From Candidatus Xianfuyuplasma coldseepsis (GTDB lineage Bacteria > Bacillota_I > Bacilli_A > Izemoplasmatales > Izemoplasmataceae): a stretch of DNA of 64,000 nucleotides. Under the pieces are notes generated by a model, which ran no database searches, was not told where the DNA came from, and saw only the letters and a program-made list of their open reading frames with translations. The stretch is taken from the NCBI RefSeq assembly GCF_014023125.1, contig NZ_CP048914.1, forward strand, positions 620,001 to 684,000. The letters run 5' to 3'. Below are positions 40,850 to 49,194 of the stretch, one piece after another. Within the stretch, counting starts at the first letter, position 1. Each line of letters begins with the position of its first letter. A program made the translations under genes and the position numbers.

Positions 40850-41105
40850 AAAAAAATTCCTCTACACAAATACTGTGTAGAGGACGTTATTCACGTGGTG
40901 CCACCTCATATTCGGTTATTAAAAAAACCCTTGTTCGGATACATGCATACCCTAGCCCTATAACGGGAGCTCCCGTGACTCCATACTACGATTCAAGAGT
41001 CCTCTCATGGATCCATTCATCATTCATTATTTGATTCGTTTCCACCAACCACGAACTCTCTATACAAATGTCTGAATAACTACTTACTTCCATTCAACAA
41101 TTTCC
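40850..41105 (-). promoter_or_regulatory. Tryptophan T-box riboswitch of trpB
   Basis: On the minus strand the leader has stem I with the AG-bulge-type sequence GAGAGTTCGTGGTTGGTGGAA, the specifier context GAATGGATCC giving UGG (41015-41013), the T-box AGGTGGCACCACG (40906-40894), and a terminator stem CCTCTACACA/TGTGTAGAGG with a T run (40883-40851). The bulge TGGC would pair with the tRNA end G-CCA, and tRNA-Trp normally has G at position 73. Uncharged tRNA-Trp should stabilise the antiterminator and turn on trpB. The spacer contains no other gene. Confidence 0.9.
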
Positions 41106-41108
41106 TAC

Positions 41109-41164: not shown

Positions 41165-41193
41165 TTGCGTTTGATTATTTGATGTGCTATTAT
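41165..41193 (+). promoter_or_regulatory. Promoter of the histidine operon
   Basis: TTGCGT (41165-41170), a 17-base spacer and TATTAT (41188-41193); transcription would begin near 41200, giving a leader of about 200 bases. Confidence 0.7.
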
Positions 41194-41201
41194 CTTAATA
41201 G

Positions 41202-41221
41202 TACTTTATCGATGTAAAGTA
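41202..41221 (+). repeat. Inverted repeat at the 5' end of the his leader
   Basis: TACTTTA and TAAAGTA form a perfect 7-bp inverted repeat around six bases, at or just after the expected transcription start. It could be a protecting 5' hairpin or an operator. Confidence 0.5.
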
Positions 41222-41239
41222 TTAAAGAGGATGATTACA

Positions 41240-41284
41240 ATGACGATATTATTTAACAAAAACCATCATCATACAAGAACATAA
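41240..41284 (+). CDS. hisL: His-rich leader peptide (MTILFNKNHHHTRT)
   Basis: This 14-codon reading frame has AAAGAGG nine bases upstream of its ATG and contains three consecutive CAT His codons (41264-41272) shortly before its stop. It lies in the untranslated leader of the histidine operon, 120 bases before hisZ. In form it matches the HisL leader peptide of enteric bacteria, on which ribosome stalling at His codons controls a downstream terminator. It has only three His codons against seven in E. coli. The name hisL is used by analogy. Confidence 0.7.
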   Translation: MTILFNKNHHHTRT

Positions 41285-41295
41285 GGTTTGTACAA

Positions 41296-41383
41296 CTAAA
41301 CATCGTTTAGATACAGGCCTATTTATCATGTCTTGTATCTATCAATAGAAAACTTAAACAGGTAGATATGCTACCTGTTTTTT
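41296..41383 (+). promoter_or_regulatory. His operon attenuator with alternative helices
   Basis: Four segments can pair in exclusive ways. Segment 1 (41308-41317, TAGATACAGG) pairs over 10 bp with segment 2 (41332-41341, CTTGTATCTA). Segment 2 extended (41334-41343) pairs over 8-10 bp with segment 3 (41361-41370, GGTAGATATG). Segment 3 also belongs to the terminator stem AAACAGGTAG/CTACCTGTTT (41356-41380) followed by a T run. A small upstream hairpin CTAAAC-ATC-GUUUAG (41296-41310) overlaps segment 1. Pairings were read by eye; energies were not computed. Confidence 0.7.
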
Positions 41384-41403: not shown

Positions 41404-42327
41404 ATGAAATCAATTATTGAGGAAATACAATTTATTAAAAAGCGAAATAAAATCTTGCGCCAGCTCGAAGAGCTTGCTGAACAGGAAGGGATGCTACGTG
41501 TAGAAAGTGATGCGTTTGAGGAATATACTTCTTATGTACAATCGAATCCGAGACAGGATGCAAACAAACTGGTTAAGGTAGCGGATCTACAAGGCGACGT
41601 CTATCTGTTAAAGCCAGACATCACAACCAACCTTATCAAACAGGTAATCCCACGGATGGAACAAGACCTTGGTTTATCCCTCTACTATCTGGATACAGTA
41701 TATGCCTTTAATGATTTTGGATCGATTACACCTACTCGACAATTTGGAATTGAAGTCATTGGTGCATCTCAAATCGATGAGGATTTTCGTTTAATCTCAT
41801 TCATTACACGGCTATTCGATCAGTACAATATTACATACAATATCGAGCTTGGGAATCAGCAATGGATTAATGATGTGATTGAACAATTACAAGCATCCAA
41901 AACCATTGCCAATCTAATAAAAAAAGCCCTGATTGATAAAAACAAGGAAGGCATCAAACAATATGTTAGCAATCCAGGGTATCAAACCCTCCTACTAACT
42001 GTGATTCAACGTCAAAATGATATCCCAGCGTATATAGATATCATTCAACAATATAACCTTCCTAAAACATTACACACGCAATTATTGGAACTACATGAAC
42101 TTGTTAACCGATTGGATAATCCCAATATCGAGGTCGATTTATCATTACTAAATGAGTTTGATTATTATAACGGCATTATCTATCGTGGATACGTTAACTC
42201 CTATAAAACCAATATTCTTCGTGGAGGTCGCTATGACTCGATTACACAAGAGTTTGGAACGTTAACTCCAGCCTTAGGATTTTCGTTGGATGTGGACATC
42301 TTTATCAATGAGGTGATTACCAAATGA
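41404..42327 (+). CDS. hisZ: ATP phosphoribosyltransferase regulatory subunit
   Basis: This 307-residue protein is a paralogue of histidyl-tRNA synthetase lacking the anticodon domain. It forms the regulatory part of the hetero-octameric ATP phosphoribosyltransferase with short HisG. Class II-like segments are visible: LLKPDITTNLIKQVI, FGIEVIGA and the C-terminal RGGRYDSITQEFG. The ATG at 41404 has GGAAAGGA upstream; an earlier in-frame ATG at 41368 lies inside the attenuator terminator and is rejected. It heads the his operon and overlaps hisG by four bases. Confidence 0.9.
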   Translation: MKSIIEEIQFIKKRNKILRQLEELAEQEGMLRVESDAFEEYTSYVQSNPRQDANKLVKVADLQGDVYLLKPDITTNLIKQVIPRMEQDLGLSLYYLDTVYAFNDFGSITPTRQFGIEVIGASQIDEDFRLISFITRLFDQYNITYNIELGNQQWINDVIEQLQASKTIANLIKKALIDKNKEGIKQYVSNPGYQTLLLTVIQRQNDIPAYIDIIQQYNLPKTLHTQLLELHELVNRLDNPNIEVDLSLLNEFDYYNGIIYRGYVNSYKTNILRGGRYDSITQEFGTLTPALGFSLDVDIFINEVITK

Positions 42328-42950
42328 ATTCAAGATTAACCATTGCCCTCCCAAAAGGTCGGCTTGCACAACAAGTATTGAAAAAATTAAACGCACAAGG
42401 ATTACCAATCACGATTAACCCATCATCACGCGTCTTAATTCAGACAGATGAAAACAACTATGAATACATGTTTGTCAAACCCAGTGATGTCATCACTTAT
42501 GTCGAAGAAGGTGTTTGTGATATTGGGTTCGTCGGTTCTGATAGTATCCTCGAAGAACGGAAAGATATTTATGAACTTGTCGATCTCAAAATCGGTGTAT
42601 GTAAAATGGTCATTGCTGGTAAAGACAATGATATTTTAGAAAAGTCATCCACAATCCGTGTTGCGAGTAAATATCCCTACATTGCGAAAACAGCATGTAC
42701 CGACATGGGAATAAATGCAACCATCGTTAAACTAAATGGTAGTGTGGAACTCGGACCACTCGTTGGTTTAAGCGATGTCATCGTTGATATATATGAGACT
42801 GGCAATACATTAAAAGCAAATAATCTTCAAGTTCTCAAGGAACTATTTGATATCAGTACACGCTTAATTGCAAACAAAGCAAGTTTCCGTCGTAAACGAC
42901 AGATTATAGAACGGATTATTACAATCCTAGATGAAGAGGTGTCACCATGA
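42324..42950 (+). CDS. hisG: ATP phosphoribosyltransferase catalytic subunit (short form)
   Basis: This 208-residue protein catalyses the first step of histidine synthesis, joining ATP and PRPP. It is the short form (no C-terminal ACT-like regulatory domain) that needs HisZ, encoded just before it. Features: LTIALPKGRL at the start, DIGFVGSDSI, and the PRPP loop LNGSVELGPLVGLSDVIVDI. ATGA overlaps link it to hisZ and hisD. Confidence 0.95.
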   Translation: MNSRLTIALPKGRLAQQVLKKLNAQGLPITINPSSRVLIQTDENNYEYMFVKPSDVITYVEEGVCDIGFVGSDSILEERKDIYELVDLKIGVCKMVIAGKDNDILEKSSTIRVASKYPYIAKTACTDMGINATIVKLNGSVELGPLVGLSDVIVDIYETGNTLKANNLQVLKELFDISTRLIANKASFRRKRQIIERIITILDEEVSP

Positions 42951-44227
42951 TTACAACCTATACAAAAGAAGAATTTATCAACCTTCCCAAGGAAAAAACA
43001 GCGTTTAATTCTAAACAAATCAATACGGTTAAACAGATCATAAACGATGTTCAACTGCGGCAAGATGATGCCTTACGAGAATACACCCTTCTGTTTGATA
43101 AGGTAGATATCGAAAATTTTAAGATTTCCCAAGATCAAATCGATGTAGCCTATCAAACCTGTGATCCATTATTGCGACAAGATTTGGAAATCGCGTTTCA
43201 AAACATTCTTTCATACCATGAACAACAACGTCAAAAAGGGTATCAAATATCACTCGATGATGACAGCTACATAGGACAATTAATCCGACCGATTGAACGT
43301 GTTGGAATCTATGTCCCTGGTGGTACCGCAGCATACCCATCAACGGTTCTGATGAATGCGGCACCAGCAATTATTGCCGGTGTCAAAGAGATTGCGATGA
43401 TTTCTCCACCAACCACGAACAAAACGATCGCCCCAATTATTCTAGTAGCAGCTAAAATTGCTGGTATCAATGAAATCTATCAAATCGGTGGTGCACAAGG
43501 CATTGCCGCGTTAGCATACGGTACGCCATCGATTCCTAAAGTGAATAAGATTGTTGGTCCTGGGAATATCTATGTGGCTTTGGCAAAACGTGAAGTCTAT
43601 GGAACCGTTGGCATTGATATGATTGCAGGACCAAGTGAAATCATGATATATGCTGATGAATCCTCCAATCCTCGATTCATTGCTGCAGATTTGCTCAGTC
43701 AAGCGGAGCATGACATCCTTGCTCGACCACTACTTGTGACCACATCTCCTATCATTATTCCTCTTGTACAAGAAGAACTCTCAAAACAATTAGCACAACT
43801 CTCACGACAACAAATTGCAATTCAGTCCCTACGTGATTATGGTGCAATCATTCTTGTCGACAATGAAGCGGAAGCCATCGAGATGATCAACCGTGTCGCA
43901 CCTGAACATCTTGAATTATTACAACAAAATCCAGAGAAGTCGATTCCTCAGATTCAAAATGCCGGGGCAATCTTTGTTGGTCCCTATAGTCCTGAGCCAC
44001 TTGGCGATTATATGGCAGGACCAAATCACACATTACCAACAAGTGGAACTGCCACATTCTCCTCGGCATTATCAGTTGGTGATTTCATAACCAAAACATC
44101 CGTCATTTCTTATTCAAAAGCACGTCTATATCAAGCAAAAGACCGTATTGTGCGCATCGCTACCAAAGAGGGTTTAACCGCTCATGCCAATGCCATATCT
44201 GTGAGGTATACCAATGAAAACGAATAA
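42947..44227 (+). CDS. hisD: Histidinol dehydrogenase
   Basis: This 426-residue zinc enzyme performs the last two steps, oxidising histidinol to histidine with two NAD+. Landmarks are YVPGGTAAYPSTVLMNAAPA, GPGNIYVALAKR, the zinc-site segment SQAEHDILARPLL and GPNHTLPTSGTATF. Length is standard. It overlaps hisG by four bases and hisC by 14. Confidence 0.96.
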   Translation: MITTYTKEEFINLPKEKTAFNSKQINTVKQIINDVQLRQDDALREYTLLFDKVDIENFKISQDQIDVAYQTCDPLLRQDLEIAFQNILSYHEQQRQKGYQISLDDDSYIGQLIRPIERVGIYVPGGTAAYPSTVLMNAAPAIIAGVKEIAMISPPTTNKTIAPIILVAAKIAGINEIYQIGGAQGIAALAYGTPSIPKVNKIVGPGNIYVALAKREVYGTVGIDMIAGPSEIMIYADESSNPRFIAADLLSQAEHDILARPLLVTTSPIIIPLVQEELSKQLAQLSRQQIAIQSLRDYGAIILVDNEAEAIEMINRVAPEHLELLQQNPEKSIPQIQNAGAIFVGPYSPEPLGDYMAGPNHTLPTSGTATFSSALSVGDFITKTSVISYSKARLYQAKDRIVRIATKEGLTAHANAISVRYTNENE

Positions 44228-45227
44228 ATATATTACAAGTCTAATACCCTACTCGTCAAAAAAAGTTGATGCATCAATTCTACTAAATGCGAATGAAACC
44301 ACTAACTATTTGTTTCCAGATGGAATCCGTCTTGACTATGACATCGAGCGCTACCCCATCAAAACCCCACAACAACTAATCAATCAATTGGCAGATAAAT
44401 ACTCCGTACCATCCGCTTCATTGATTCTCGGTAATGGATCCACAGAACTGTTAGAGCTTTCGACACGTACCTTTACCGATATCGGGGATATCATACTAAC
44501 ACTTGATCCATCGTTTTCAATGTATACTGTCTATTCGCAAGTGGTTGGTTGTACCTTGAAAACCGTATCCGTATTTCAACCGATTGAATCCATCTTTACC
44601 AACTTACGTGAATTAAATCAACAATTCAATCCTTCCATTGTTTTTATCTGTAATCCGAACAATCCAACGGGAACATTATTACCCCGATCAGAGATTCTCT
44701 CCTTTGTGAAAGAGACCGATGCATTGGTGATTGTCGATGAAGCCTATATGGAATTTGCTAACGAACAAGAAAGTGTTGCCCTTGACACAAAAACCTACGA
44801 CAATCTACTTGTTGCTCGAACATTCTCAAAAGCCTATGGACTTGCCTCTTTACGATTGGGTTATATGATTGGTTCACCCTCAACAATAACTACACTATCC
44901 AAGGCAAAACTTCCTTATAGTCTAAATGAAGTAACCGCCCGAATAGGATTGCAAGCTTTAGAATATGAATCACGCGTTCAAACATTTGTCTCTTCTGTCA
45001 TTACAGAGCGAGACAAACTGTATCAAGAATTGCAGCAATTACCACTTAAAGTACAACCTTCCTTTACTAATTTTTTCTTTGTAGAGAGTACCATTGATTT
45101 ACAGTCAGCACTGCTTAACTATGGTATCTTAATCCGATCATTTCGTAATGGAACATACCGTATTACGATTGGAACGAAAGATGAAAATAAGCAATTATTA
45201 ATAGCCCTTCAGGAGGTATTATCATGA
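44214..45227 (+). CDS. hisC: Histidinol-phosphate aminotransferase
   Basis: This 337-residue PLP aminotransferase makes histidinol phosphate. It shows NANETTNYLFP, the NPNNPTGT loop, VDEAYMEF and the PLP Lys in TFSKAYGLASLRLGY. It is of normal, slightly short, length. It overlaps hisD by 14 bases and hisB by four. Confidence 0.94.
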   Translation: MKTNKYITSLIPYSSKKVDASILLNANETTNYLFPDGIRLDYDIERYPIKTPQQLINQLADKYSVPSASLILGNGSTELLELSTRTFTDIGDIILTLDPSFSMYTVYSQVVGCTLKTVSVFQPIESIFTNLRELNQQFNPSIVFICNPNNPTGTLLPRSEILSFVKETDALVIVDEAYMEFANEQESVALDTKTYDNLLVARTFSKAYGLASLRLGYMIGSPSTITTLSKAKLPYSLNEVTARIGLQALEYESRVQTFVSSVITERDKLYQELQQLPLKVQPSFTNFFFVESTIDLQSALLNYGILIRSFRNGTYRITIGTKDENKQLLIALQEVLS

Positions 45228-45805
45228 GAACATCGTCCTTATCACGACAAACAACCGAAACCGACATATCGATTCAACTGAATCTAGACGGGTCGAACAA
45301 CACCAATATTTCCACAGGTATTCCCTTCTTTGATCACATGTTAACAGCCCTTGCATTCTACGCAAATTGGGATATAAATCTCACTGCAAAAGGCGATTTA
45401 ACGATTGATGATCATCATACCGTTGAAGATATTGGCATTGTCTTAGGAACCGTATTTAGACAAGCCCTTGGGTCCAAAACGGGAATCACCCGTTTTGCGG
45501 ATACATTCACACCGATGGATGAAGCTTTAGTTCAAGTCGTTATCGATATCTCCAATCGTCCCTATTTGGCATTTATTTCACCCTTTAAACGGGAACAAAT
45601 CGGTGGGTTATCACTCGAAAATATTAAGGAATTTCTATATGCCTTTGTCATGGAAGCACGGATAACACTTCACATCAATGTTTCACGTGGAACAAATGAT
45701 CACCACATCGCTGAAGCCATCTTTAAAGGCTTAGGTAGAACTTTGTATCAAGCAAGTGTACTATCCCGTGATATCCTACCTTCCACAAAAGGTGTCTTAG
45801 AATGA
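45224..45805 (+). CDS. hisB: Imidazoleglycerol-phosphate dehydratase
   Basis: This 193-residue manganese enzyme is the monofunctional dehydratase without a fused phosphatase. Metal-binding repeats are visible: FFDHMLTALAFYANWD, DDHHTVEDIGIV and NDHHIAEAIFKGLGRTL. The phosphatase step is covered by the PHP protein at the end of the operon. Confidence 0.96.
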   Translation: MRTSSLSRQTTETDISIQLNLDGSNNTNISTGIPFFDHMLTALAFYANWDINLTAKGDLTIDDHHTVEDIGIVLGTVFRQALGSKTGITRFADTFTPMDEALVQVVIDISNRPYLAFISPFKREQIGGLSLENIKEFLYAFVMEARITLHINVSRGTNDHHIAEAIFKGLGRTLYQASVLSRDILPSTKGVLE

Positions 45806-46404
45806 TTGTCATCATTGATTATGATGTTGGGAACCTTCAATCGCTGCAACAAGGATTCTCCCGTGCCAACATGGAGACGATCATCTCCAATGATTCCGAC
45901 ATTATTCAACAAGCAGATGTTTTAATTCTTCCAGGCGTGGGTGCCTTTCCCGATGCGATGAAGGATCTCAAACAAACTGGTTTAATTCCAATTATCGATC
46001 AACATGTCGCTAACGGTAAACTCTTGGTTGGTATCTGTCTTGGAATGCAGCTTTTATTTGAAGCTAGTGAAGAGTTTACGTATACAGAAGGTCTGGGTTA
46101 TATTGATGGCACAGTCAAAGCGTTAAACATTCCTTACAAAGTTCCACATATGGGATGGAATGATCTAACCGTCATCAAAGAAGACCCGATCACTTGCACC
46201 ATCTCAAATGGTGACTACGTCTATTTTATCCACTCGTACTATGTCAACACATCACTAGAGAATGTCATTGCCTATACCAATTACGGTGTCGACATTCCCG
46301 CAATCGTCCGTAAAAAGAATATTATTGGTATGCAGTTTCATCCAGAGAAAAGTGGACGGGTGGGGCTTCGACTATTACAAGCAATCAAGGAGATGATTCG
46401 ATGA
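45802..46404 (+). CDS. hisH: Imidazole glycerol phosphate synthase, glutaminase subunit
   Basis: This 200-residue class I glutamine amidotransferase supplies ammonia to HisF. The nucleophile Cys is in GICLGMQLLFE and the His-Glu pair in MQFHPEKSG; PHMGWN is also family-typical. It is joined to both neighbours by ATGA overlaps. Confidence 0.96.
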   Translation: MIVIIDYDVGNLQSLQQGFSRANMETIISNDSDIIQQADVLILPGVGAFPDAMKDLKQTGLIPIIDQHVANGKLLVGICLGMQLLFEASEEFTYTEGLGYIDGTVKALNIPYKVPHMGWNDLTVIKEDPITCTISNGDYVYFIHSYYVNTSLENVIAYTNYGVDIPAIVRKKNIIGMQFHPEKSGRVGLRLLQAIKEMIR

Positions 46405-47132
46405 TTATTTTCCCAGCAATTGATATCAAAAATGGAGCTTGTGTTCGATTACAACAAGGGGACTTTACAACAAGCACAACCTATCGTGATAACCCCGTGC
46501 AAGTAGCCCAAGAATATGAACGTGATGGAGCATCGTGGATTCACATTATTGATTTAGATGGTGCCGAGACTGGAAACAATACCAATATCCTTGTCATAAA
46601 GGATATCGTTGAACAGACCAGTATAAAGATTCAAGTGGGCGGTGGCATTCGCAGTGAGGAAACCATTCGTACATTACTGGATATCGGTGTCACAAGAGTC
46701 ATTGTAGGTACGTTTGCTTTGAAACAACCACAAGCACTCCAACGACTACTAGTAGATTATCCGAATCAAATAATTGTCTCTGTGGATAGTAAGGATGGGT
46801 TTGTCACCTACCATGGTTGGCAAGAACAATCCACAAAAACAACACTATCATTTTCTAAAGAGTTAGAAGCTCTAGGAGTACAGACAATCGTCTATACCGA
46901 TATAGCCAAAGATGGAATGATGCAAGGACCGAACATCAACGATTATCAAACCCTACAACAACAGACCTCATTGAATATCATTGCCTCAGGTGGAGTATCT
47001 ACTTATGATGACATCAACACACTACGAGAACTGGGTTTATATGGAGCGATTATTGGTAAAGCACTCTATATTAAACAACTGAACCTAAAGGAGGCAATCC
47101 GATGCTCGCAAAACGAATCATTCCCTGTTTAG
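46401..47132 (+). CDS. hisA: ProFAR isomerase
   Basis: This 243-residue (beta/alpha)8 barrel isomerises ProFAR to PRFAR. The catalytic Asp residues lie in FPAIDIKNG and [14 protein letters not shown]; phosphate-binding GGGIR and ASGGVS are present. Its last 31 bases overlap hisF, an unusually long overlap for this operon, adding the tail [10 protein letters not shown]. Confidence 0.95.
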
Positions 47133-47863
47133 ATGTCCGTGACGGACGAGTTGTCAAAGGAACAAAATTCACCAATATCCACGATGTGGATGATCCGAAA
47201 GTTCTCGGTAAACGCTACAGTGAAGACGGCGCTGATGAACTGGTATTTTATGACATCACCGCTTCCCATGAAGAGCGTCAAACATCTCTCGAGTTTGTCG
47301 AACAAGTTGCCTTAGAAATCAATATCCCCTTTTGTGTTGGAGGCGGTATTCGAACGATGGACGATATCAAAACCATCCTTCGCAAGGGAGCCGACAAAGT
47401 ATCGTTAAACTCCGGGGCCCTTGATAATCCATCCTTGATTCAAGAAGCATCCCAAAAATATGGTGCCCAGTGTATTGTCTTATCAATCGATGTCAAAGAA
47501 GAAAACGGCCAATATCTTGTCTATCGTAATGGCGGTCGGATCAACACCCGTATTGATGCGATTGAATGGGCGAAACAAGGTGTTGCCTTAGGTGCTGGTG
47601 AACTCGTCATCAACAGCATCAATTACGATGGGATGAAGAACGGATTTGACATCACCCTATTAAACAAAATAACAGCTGTTGTCAATGTTCCTGTAATTGC
47701 CTCTGGCGGTGCAGGATCAATAAACGATTTCATCGAACTTGGCAAGCGTACTACCGCAGATGGATTTCTCGCTGCTAGTGTATTCCATTTCGGAGAAATA
47801 AATATTCCGACATTAAAAGAGACGCTGAACCGCGAAGGTATCAGTGTCCGGATTGAGAGGTAA
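47102..47863 (+). CDS. hisF: Imidazole glycerol phosphate synthase, cyclase subunit
   Basis: This 253-residue barrel enzyme closes the imidazole ring using ammonia from HisH. It shows [41 protein letters not shown] and ASGGAGSI. The start at 47102 has AAAGGAGGCAATCCG directly upstream, confirming that it begins inside hisA. Confidence 0.97.
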
Positions 47864-47866
47864 CGT

Positions 47867-48463
47867 ATGAATATTACATTTAACAAAGAAGAACTTGTCC
47901 CCGTCATTGTTCAAGATTATCGAACGGGTGAAGTCTTAATGCTTGCTTATATGAATCAAGAAGCGTACGACAAAACTGTGGAAACAAACGATATGTATTA
48001 CTTCAGTCGTAGTCGTCAAACCTTATGGCGTAAAGGCGAGACATCCGGTAACACGCAACGCTTGGTATCCCTGTCATATGACTGTGATCAAGATACATTA
48101 TTGGCCGTTGTCAATCAAACCGGTCCAGCCTGCCACACTGGGAATAAATCCTGTTTCTACCGAAGTGTTGTGGGTGAACTAGAAACTAGACAAGATCCGC
48201 TAGTAGCACTGTATGATACGATTCAGGCAAAACAACGGAATCCGGATGAAGGATATACATCCTACTTGTTTGACAAAGGATTGGATAAGATCTTGAAAAA
48301 AGTTGGTGAGGAAACCAGTGAAGTCATTATCGCATCAAAAAATAATAATGAGGAAACCATCTATGAAATCAGTGACTTATTCTATCACGTGTTGGTGTTG
48401 ATGGCGAATCAAGGAATTACCCTTCCCGATATCTATAAGGAACTCGCATCACGACGAAAATGA
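47867..48463 (+). CDS. hisIE: Bifunctional PR-AMP cyclohydrolase/PR-ATP pyrophosphatase
   Basis: This 198-residue fusion carries steps three and two. The N-terminal HisI part has [34 protein letters not shown] and [14 protein letters not shown] (zinc Cys); the C-terminal HisE part has [14 protein letters not shown] and the helix-rich pyrophosphatase core. It is coupled to hisF (three-base gap) and to the phosphatase (four-base overlap). Confidence 0.96.
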
Positions 48464-49194
48464 TTCCACGCAATCACGACTATCACATCCACACCAACTA
48501 CTCTCCGGATGCTGATCAAGAGGCTACATTTGAGGCCTATATCAACCAAGCTCAAGCACTTGGTCTTACCAAGTTAACCTTCACGGACCATGTGGATATC
48601 GATGCCGTTCATCCGTTATTCCATACCCCCATTGATTACAATGCATACCTAAAAGAGTTCAATACCGTTAAACAAACATCCCCCATCGATATTCAACTTG
48701 GTGTTGAAATTGGTTATCAGTCCCATGTTGTTGAAGAGATTAATACATTCTTGTCCAAATACCCCTTCACACATGTAATCTTATCAATCCACTATCTCGA
48801 ACAAAAAGATCTTTATACGCAAGAATACTTCATTGGAAAAACAAAAAGACAAGCCTATCAAACATACTTTGAGACCTGTCTAGATGCCATTGAATCAATT
48901 GATCAATTTGATGTCTTTGGACATCTTGATTACATTACTCGGTACAGTCCTTATGGTGATTATGACTATGAGGAATATAAGGATATTATTGATCGTATAC
49001 TACAAGCCTTAATCCGTAAGAACAAGGGTCTTGAAATCAATACATCAGGAATTGCAAATGAACAACGAACGTATCCCAAACAAGAGGTCCTTGATCGCTT
49101 TATTGAACTTGGTGGGACAACACTTGTTTACGGGTCGGATGCTCACAAAATTTCGGAACTTGGTCGTTTCTTTATCCAAAAAAAACAGGTTTAA
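48460..49194 (+). CDS. hisK: PHP-type histidinol-phosphatase
   Basis: This 244-residue metal-dependent phosphatase belongs to the HisJ/HisK PHP family and completes the pathway. Metal ligands are visible in [31 protein letters not shown] and [12 protein letters not shown]. It overlaps hisIE by four bases and ends at the operon terminator. Confidence 0.93.

Follow-up and report, generated by a model that had tools for sequence, protein, structure and literature searches.

How is the his operon controlled whose first gene, hisZ, is preceded by a short reading frame with three histidine codons and a series of competing RNA helices? The question was addressed in a window of 64,000 nucleotides, by which we mean the whole stretch of DNA analysed (G000:C1:620001-684000), from a genome (G000) that consists of a single contig of 1,958,905 bases. 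With good confidence we assign two layers of histidine control to this region, a predicted operator for the repressor HisR and a six-segment, ribosome-mediated transcription attenuator. The assignment draws on the parts themselves, their conservation, the partner-specific complementarity of the RNA segments, an invariant geometry and the co-occurrence of operator box and hisR gene, all obtained by computation.

In 5' to 3' direction a putative promoter, a palindrome, a Shine-Dalgarno sequence (SD), the leader ORF, the competing helices, an intrinsic terminator and hisZ follow each other (Table 1). A short, translatable ORF with successive His codons is present, as are a mutually exclusive antiterminator and intrinsic terminator ahead of the first gene, as expected of an attenuator. 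The initial annotation of this DNA had recognised a 14-codon ORF with ribosome-binding site and three His codons and a terminator shortly before hisZ. Both were found again, the latter at 41356-41380 with a U-run to 41383, ahead of the hisZ ATG at 41404. This is the sole short ORF with SD and three consecutive His codons in the 64 kb window, and counts of the same ORF class in ten crude shuffles were 1, 0, 0, 0, 0, 0, 0, 0, 0 and 0; the folding energy of the leader lies 3.9 standard deviations under that of shuffles. Leaders of relatives are preceded by a stretch similar to the promoter, TTG..(TG)nTATAAT-like. In the ribosome-free fold of the window, GAUGAU at 41230-41235, just 3' of the SD, pairs with the His codons at 41265-41270, a pairing that could damp translation of the leader.

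Among the operon genes, HisG, HisD, HisC (aminotransferase) and HisIE were assigned by Pfam, and hisB, hisH, hisA and hisF were named by reading their translations. T-box control of the his genes was rejected, as the initial annotation had already held: the only T-box of the window lies on the minus strand and serves trpB. Two amino-acid operons with different RNA sensors share this single intergenic region.

Table 1. Features of the his control region and operon, with the related genes discussed in the text; window positions except for the last line, which is given in contig coordinates.
Feature	Position	Strand	Remarks
T-box leader, full-length	40877..41106	-	124 bits; precedes divergent trpB
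Putative promoter	41165..41193	+	TTGCGT 41165-41170, 17 bp, TATTAT 41188-41193, extended -10 TG; read from sequence
Candidate HisR operator tACTTTATCGATGTAAAGTa	41202..41221	.	about +1 to +20 of transcript, just 3' of promoter
SD of leader peptide, AGAGG	41226..41230	+	9 nt 5' of ATG
Leader peptide ORF MTILFNKNHHHTRT	41240..41284	+	14 codons, stop TAA
Regulatory His codons, CAT x3	41264..41272	+	
Segment A	41271..41282	+	His-codon end to stop; partner D 41328-41338, if ribosome-free; window MFE, swap test
Segment B (AGGUUUGUA)	41284..41292	+	partner C 41312-41320
Segment C (UAGAUACAGGCCU)	41308..41320	+	partners B, or D 41332-41341
Segment D (AUGUCUUGUAUCUAUC)	41328..41343	+	partners A, C or E
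Segment E	41356..41369	+	41356-41365 is terminator 5' arm; 41361-41369 pairs with D 41335-41343 (antiterminator)
Segment F and U-run	41371..41383	+	F 41371-41380, U-run to 41383; intrinsic terminator 3' arm
hisZ	41404..42327	+	first gene of operon; TIGR00443 E 1.2e-48 (below curated cut-off); PF13393
hisG, hisD, hisC, hisB, hisH, hisA, hisF, hisIE	42324..48463	+	close or overlapping genes, single run
HisJ-family histidinol-phosphatase (PHP)	48460..49194	+	last gene of operon; TIGR01856 160 bits, cut-off 90
YerC/HisR-family gene	G000:C1:1910497-1910754		PF01371 93 bits; TIGR02531 3.4e-36

With HisZ of the window alone as query, no relatives were found among the genome contigs; an alignment of HisG was successful there. 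HisG also served to fetch the his operons of relatives, in 27 of 120 genomes. Where the region upstream of hisZ is intact, nearly all of them carry a short ORF, an SD and 2-5 His codons, and an SD-like sequence stands upstream of nearly all listed leader peptides. 3' of the peptide they share an RNA core of the form GGUUUG-hairpin-GAUACAAGCC-loop-(GGA)CUUGUAUCUAUC-terminator. From this core alone, with the peptide left out, a covariance model (R1) was built. Its single site in the own genome is the his leader, none being found there at non-his operons. In the order the model matched 20 of 90 genomes, all of which were already known for the his leader with the exception of an antisense leader echo in G041, and in the class 34 of 395. 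Those class-level matches that were read out (L059-L072) all have the His run and all stand before hisZ except L063. At L063 (G146) a group II intron (1501-1986; Rfam RF02001, 143.9 bits) lies directly 3' of the terminator of the his leader, at the expected position of hisZ. The search for His-codon leaders in relatives that the initial annotation had proposed was fruitful: a His run of 2-5 codons lies just upstream of 43 of 43 aligned sense copies of the core. The run is kept in frame with an SD. Both CAT (132) and CAC (27) are used in these units, as expected if it is the peptide that is kept. The same core also occurs in C. difficile (L073, E 2.9e-5 with the core model), Sedimentibacter, a 'delta proteobacterium' MAG and Gottfriedia.

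As to the secondary structure, three helices (1:2, 2:3 and 3:4) had been proposed initially. They form part of a larger set, in which six segments engage in five pairings; the former segments 1-4 correspond to C, D, E and F, and A and B are needed besides. Compensatory changes, which were to be looked for, are present in C:D and E:F, where 13 of 17 pairs show two-sided changes and the covariation score was reached in 0 of 500 shuffles. B:C is 93.7% paired across the alignment, yet shows few two-sided changes, and D:E is paired to only 73% in fixed alignment columns. Since the pairing registers differ between sequences, an alignment-free partner-swap test was chosen, in which the own partner of a segment is compared with partners from other units (43 units, 5000 permutations). 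All five pairings turned out to be specific (z of -8.7 for B:C, -9.6 for C:D, -6.4 for D:E, -7.7 for A:D and -16.3 for E:F; each 0/5000), whereas the control pairs A:B (z +0.9), A:E, B:E and C:E were not significant in the same units. Relatedness is kept in by this test and bears equally on the control pairs. In the Erysipelotrichales-like family A:D was weak. An enteric-style A:B pairing was rejected; with A:D supported and A:B not, the test argues that A:D takes the place of the enteric A:B and would nest over B:C.

The position of the codons relative to the helices is fixed as well. B starts 17-27 nt 3' of the first His codon (His1), and the stop codon falls between 8 nt upstream and 16 nt downstream of the point where B starts, both in 32 of 32 units. 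If the edge of the ribosome footprint is assumed at +12 from the A-site codon, this spacing implies that B stays accessible with a ribosome at His1 and is covered with one at the stop, so that different segments are hidden upon stalling and upon completion in all 32 units. A coupling through small hairpins at 41285-41310 had been suspected in the initial annotation; these correspond to the B:C element and account for the gap of 36 bases between the His codons and segment C. Folding in blocked and unblocked states, also suggested there, was performed with ribosome-masked leaders up to the loop of E. A ribosome placed at His1 gave more D:E than one placed at the stop in 38 of 43 units, and the stop position gave more C:D in 42 of 43. 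Averaged over the 43 units, stalling gives B:C together with D:E, completion gives C:D, and B:C with A:D is obtained in absence of a ribosome. All three states appear in the window's own masked folds; at the +12 edge and before F is made, C:D is weak or marginal there, and it becomes dominant at +15 or when F has been made. In the equilibrium fold of the full-length leader, the terminator E:F wins even with a stalled ribosome, and for this reason the switch must be kinetic, like known attenuators.

The kept His run, the helices and the codon-to-helix geometry strongly support His attenuation with D:E as the predicted antiterminator, the role given earlier to helix 2:3. With no ribosome on the leader, B:C would form, A would pair with D over it and E:F would terminate, leaving the operon off. 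When His-tRNA is short, a ribosome stalled at the His codons would cover A and leave B free; B:C would then hold C away, D could pair with E and the polymerase would enter hisZ. A ribosome at the UAA would cover B, upon which C would pair with D and E:F would terminate again. In this manner termination is expected to respond to the charging of His-tRNA. The enteric hisL leader likewise has six segments, with B:C and D:E formed upon stalling and C:D and E:F formed with the ribosome at the stop, and the same stall and stop states are predicted here. Compared to hisL of E. coli and Salmonella, the present leader differs by A:D over B:C instead of A:B and by three instead of seven His codons, and the enteric family RF00514 (His_leader) gave no match in the window leader, not even one listed at E up to 5.

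The core and the UUUAU loop separating C from D are highly conserved in primary sequence, which would also suit a small-molecule riboswitch with the GGUUUG..GAUACAAGCC..UUUAU element as aptamer and an incidental peptide. We regard this explanation as highly improbable. Most of the conservation is explained by the use of each conserved stretch in two or three competing pairings, and the core drifts with compensation, for example GGUGCAAUCCC/GGAUUGUACC in L075. His codons, SD and codon-to-B spacing are kept too. Moreover, the leader is without any match to an Rfam family: none was obtained at gathering score for the leader in the loci of five relatives, and no family of Rfam 15 matched the core in the sequences tested.

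The upper layer of control had been missed by the initial annotation. Just 5' of the SD, the exact palindrome ACTTTATCGATGTAAAGT at 41203-41220 occurs once in the window versus 0.07 expected occurrences. It fits the published consensus cacTTTAnnnnnnTAAAgtg of HisR, which is YerC of B. subtilis (PMC9413887), as expected for an operator of the HisR regulon. When histidine is plentiful, the TrpR-family protein HisR encoded in this genome would bind the palindrome region. For the comparison with relatives, a box had to score 19 or more and to lie no further than 190 nt before B, and a gene was counted when its TrpR-family match exceeded the Pfam cut-off. Among 36 leader-bearing genomes, nine had both the box and the gene (9/9) and the other 27 had neither (27/27); seven leader genomes added later behaved alike (2/2 with both, 5/5 with neither). 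In total, the box was found in 11 of 11 leader genomes with hisR and in 0 of 32 without (Fisher p 1.7e-10, relatedness ignored; some HisR-less genomes are incomplete, and box absence was read from the sequence). The HisG tree shows at least 5 changes of HisR, and only 2 independent contrasts are well supported, both concordant; corrected for phylogeny, the evidence is consistent but limited in amount.

Could the attenuator be the only layer, with HisR acting elsewhere and the palindrome representing a 5' stabilising RNA hairpin or chance? ACUUUA/UAAAGU could also form a hairpin at the 5' end of the transcript, and HisR binding at this site is a prediction. The fit to the consensus, the restriction of the box to genomes with the hisR gene and its recurrence at the hisZ promoter of L024, where hisR is present and a leader is not, nevertheless make this improbable, and the operon is very likely also under HisR, whose binding is predicted from the sequence. 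At L019 (G051) and L024 (G022), a TrpR/HisR-family gene is located directly upstream of the his operon together with a HisR box; no His leader was detected upstream of these two operons. HisR boxes with one mismatch were found at seven sites of the own genome. As these are not obviously beside histidine genes (neighbours judged by eye only), no further member of the HisR regulon is claimed.

Nine relatives (L005, L007, L009, L010, L011, L013, L014, L015 and L016), all of them without HisR, possess two complete attenuator units 173-198 nt apart, each with its own SD, His peptide and terminator. The copies have diverged. Copy 1 is closer to copy 1 of other genomes (64%) than to copy 2 of its own (56%), which fits an old duplication. 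Tandem copies occurred in 9 of 27 HisR-less genomes versus 0 of 9 HisR genomes (two-sided p 0.076); since they cluster on the tree, with 3 changes, a link to the loss of HisR is suggestive only. We lean towards seeing the window as an intermediate step in the replacement of HisR by attenuation, in which the operator and the A:D-wired attenuator stand jointly. HisR-less relatives would have lost the operator, some of them carrying tandem attenuators as if recovering control range. With dual, single and tandem natural forms in close relatives, the replacement of a repressor by RNA becomes directly testable.

Concerning the origin of the leaders, the attenuator of the B. cereus group has been treated as independently acquired, and three lineages were analysed separately (PMC9413887). 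Such independent convergence, with a separate His leader per lineage and a shared core that does not reflect homology, would agree with the weak A:D of the Erysipelotrichales-like family. It appears rather unlikely, as a single model matches the Izemoplasmatales-like, Acholeplasmataceae-like, Erysipelotrichales-like, C. difficile, Sedimentibacter and Gottfriedia leaders (inferred family names being used outside titled records). In addition, a quick tree of HisG contains a branch with 96% SH-aLRT that has every leader-bearing HisG on the same side, the Erysipelotrichales-like family (f15) excepted, and this side spans Bacilli-like and Clostridia-like lineages. The quick tree suggests that the leader arose once and spread by transfer of the operon, repeated invention being less likely.

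The E. coli trp operon is controlled by TrpR and by attenuation. Here, too, a TrpR-family repressor and a ribosome-mediated attenuator meet on one biosynthetic operon, with HisR and histidine taking the roles of TrpR and tryptophan and with an unrelated RNA; the predicted dual action would be the histidine counterpart of the trp arrangement. The initial annotation had considered the attenuator design an enteric one and Firmicutes his genes to be usually under T-box or repressor control. This has to be qualified, since attenuators of the His-leader type have been described upstream of hisZ in C. difficile, B. cereus and Erysipelotrichales (PMC2965389, PMC9413887, PMC4833913). The leaders of the B. 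cereus group (hisZ/hisS*), C. difficile/Peptostreptococcaceae and Erysipelotrichales similarly comprise a short peptide, 3-5 His codons and attenuator, antiterminator and terminator before hisZ, whereas the present case differs by the new lineage, the HisR operator in the same control region and the tandem copies in relatives. Tandem attenuators, with two short ORFs and two attenuating elements per leader, are known from Salmonella mgtCBR (PMC3641672); in contrast, the two units of the tandem relatives are diverged copies of one and the same His-sensing element, and each copy brings its own His codons and terminator.

The mechanism is thus the known His-leader attenuation, though the pairing scheme differs, and its kind is already published. 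According to a 2016 survey, reliable data on attenuation were lacking for Tenericutes (PMC4833913). In 2022, attenuators were sought only where HisR is absent, His attenuators were reported only from HisR-less lineages, and their substitution for HisR was proposed (PMC9413887). Our literature search gave no earlier report of a His-leader attenuator from Mycoplasmatota and none of HisR and a His attenuator on one his operon. As far as the searched part of the literature shows, the dual layout, the tandem copies and the A:D wiring appear new. The co-occurrence of box and hisR with leaders also appears new and would disagree with the published idea of HisR having been replaced by attenuators.

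The core model could become an RNA family. Within the core, the loop between C and D (41319-41328) is CCUAUUUAUC-like in the window and CCUUUAUnnnCGUG in many relatives. This motif is kept in sequence though it lies mostly outside the proposed pairings, and it is possibly a pause or protein site.
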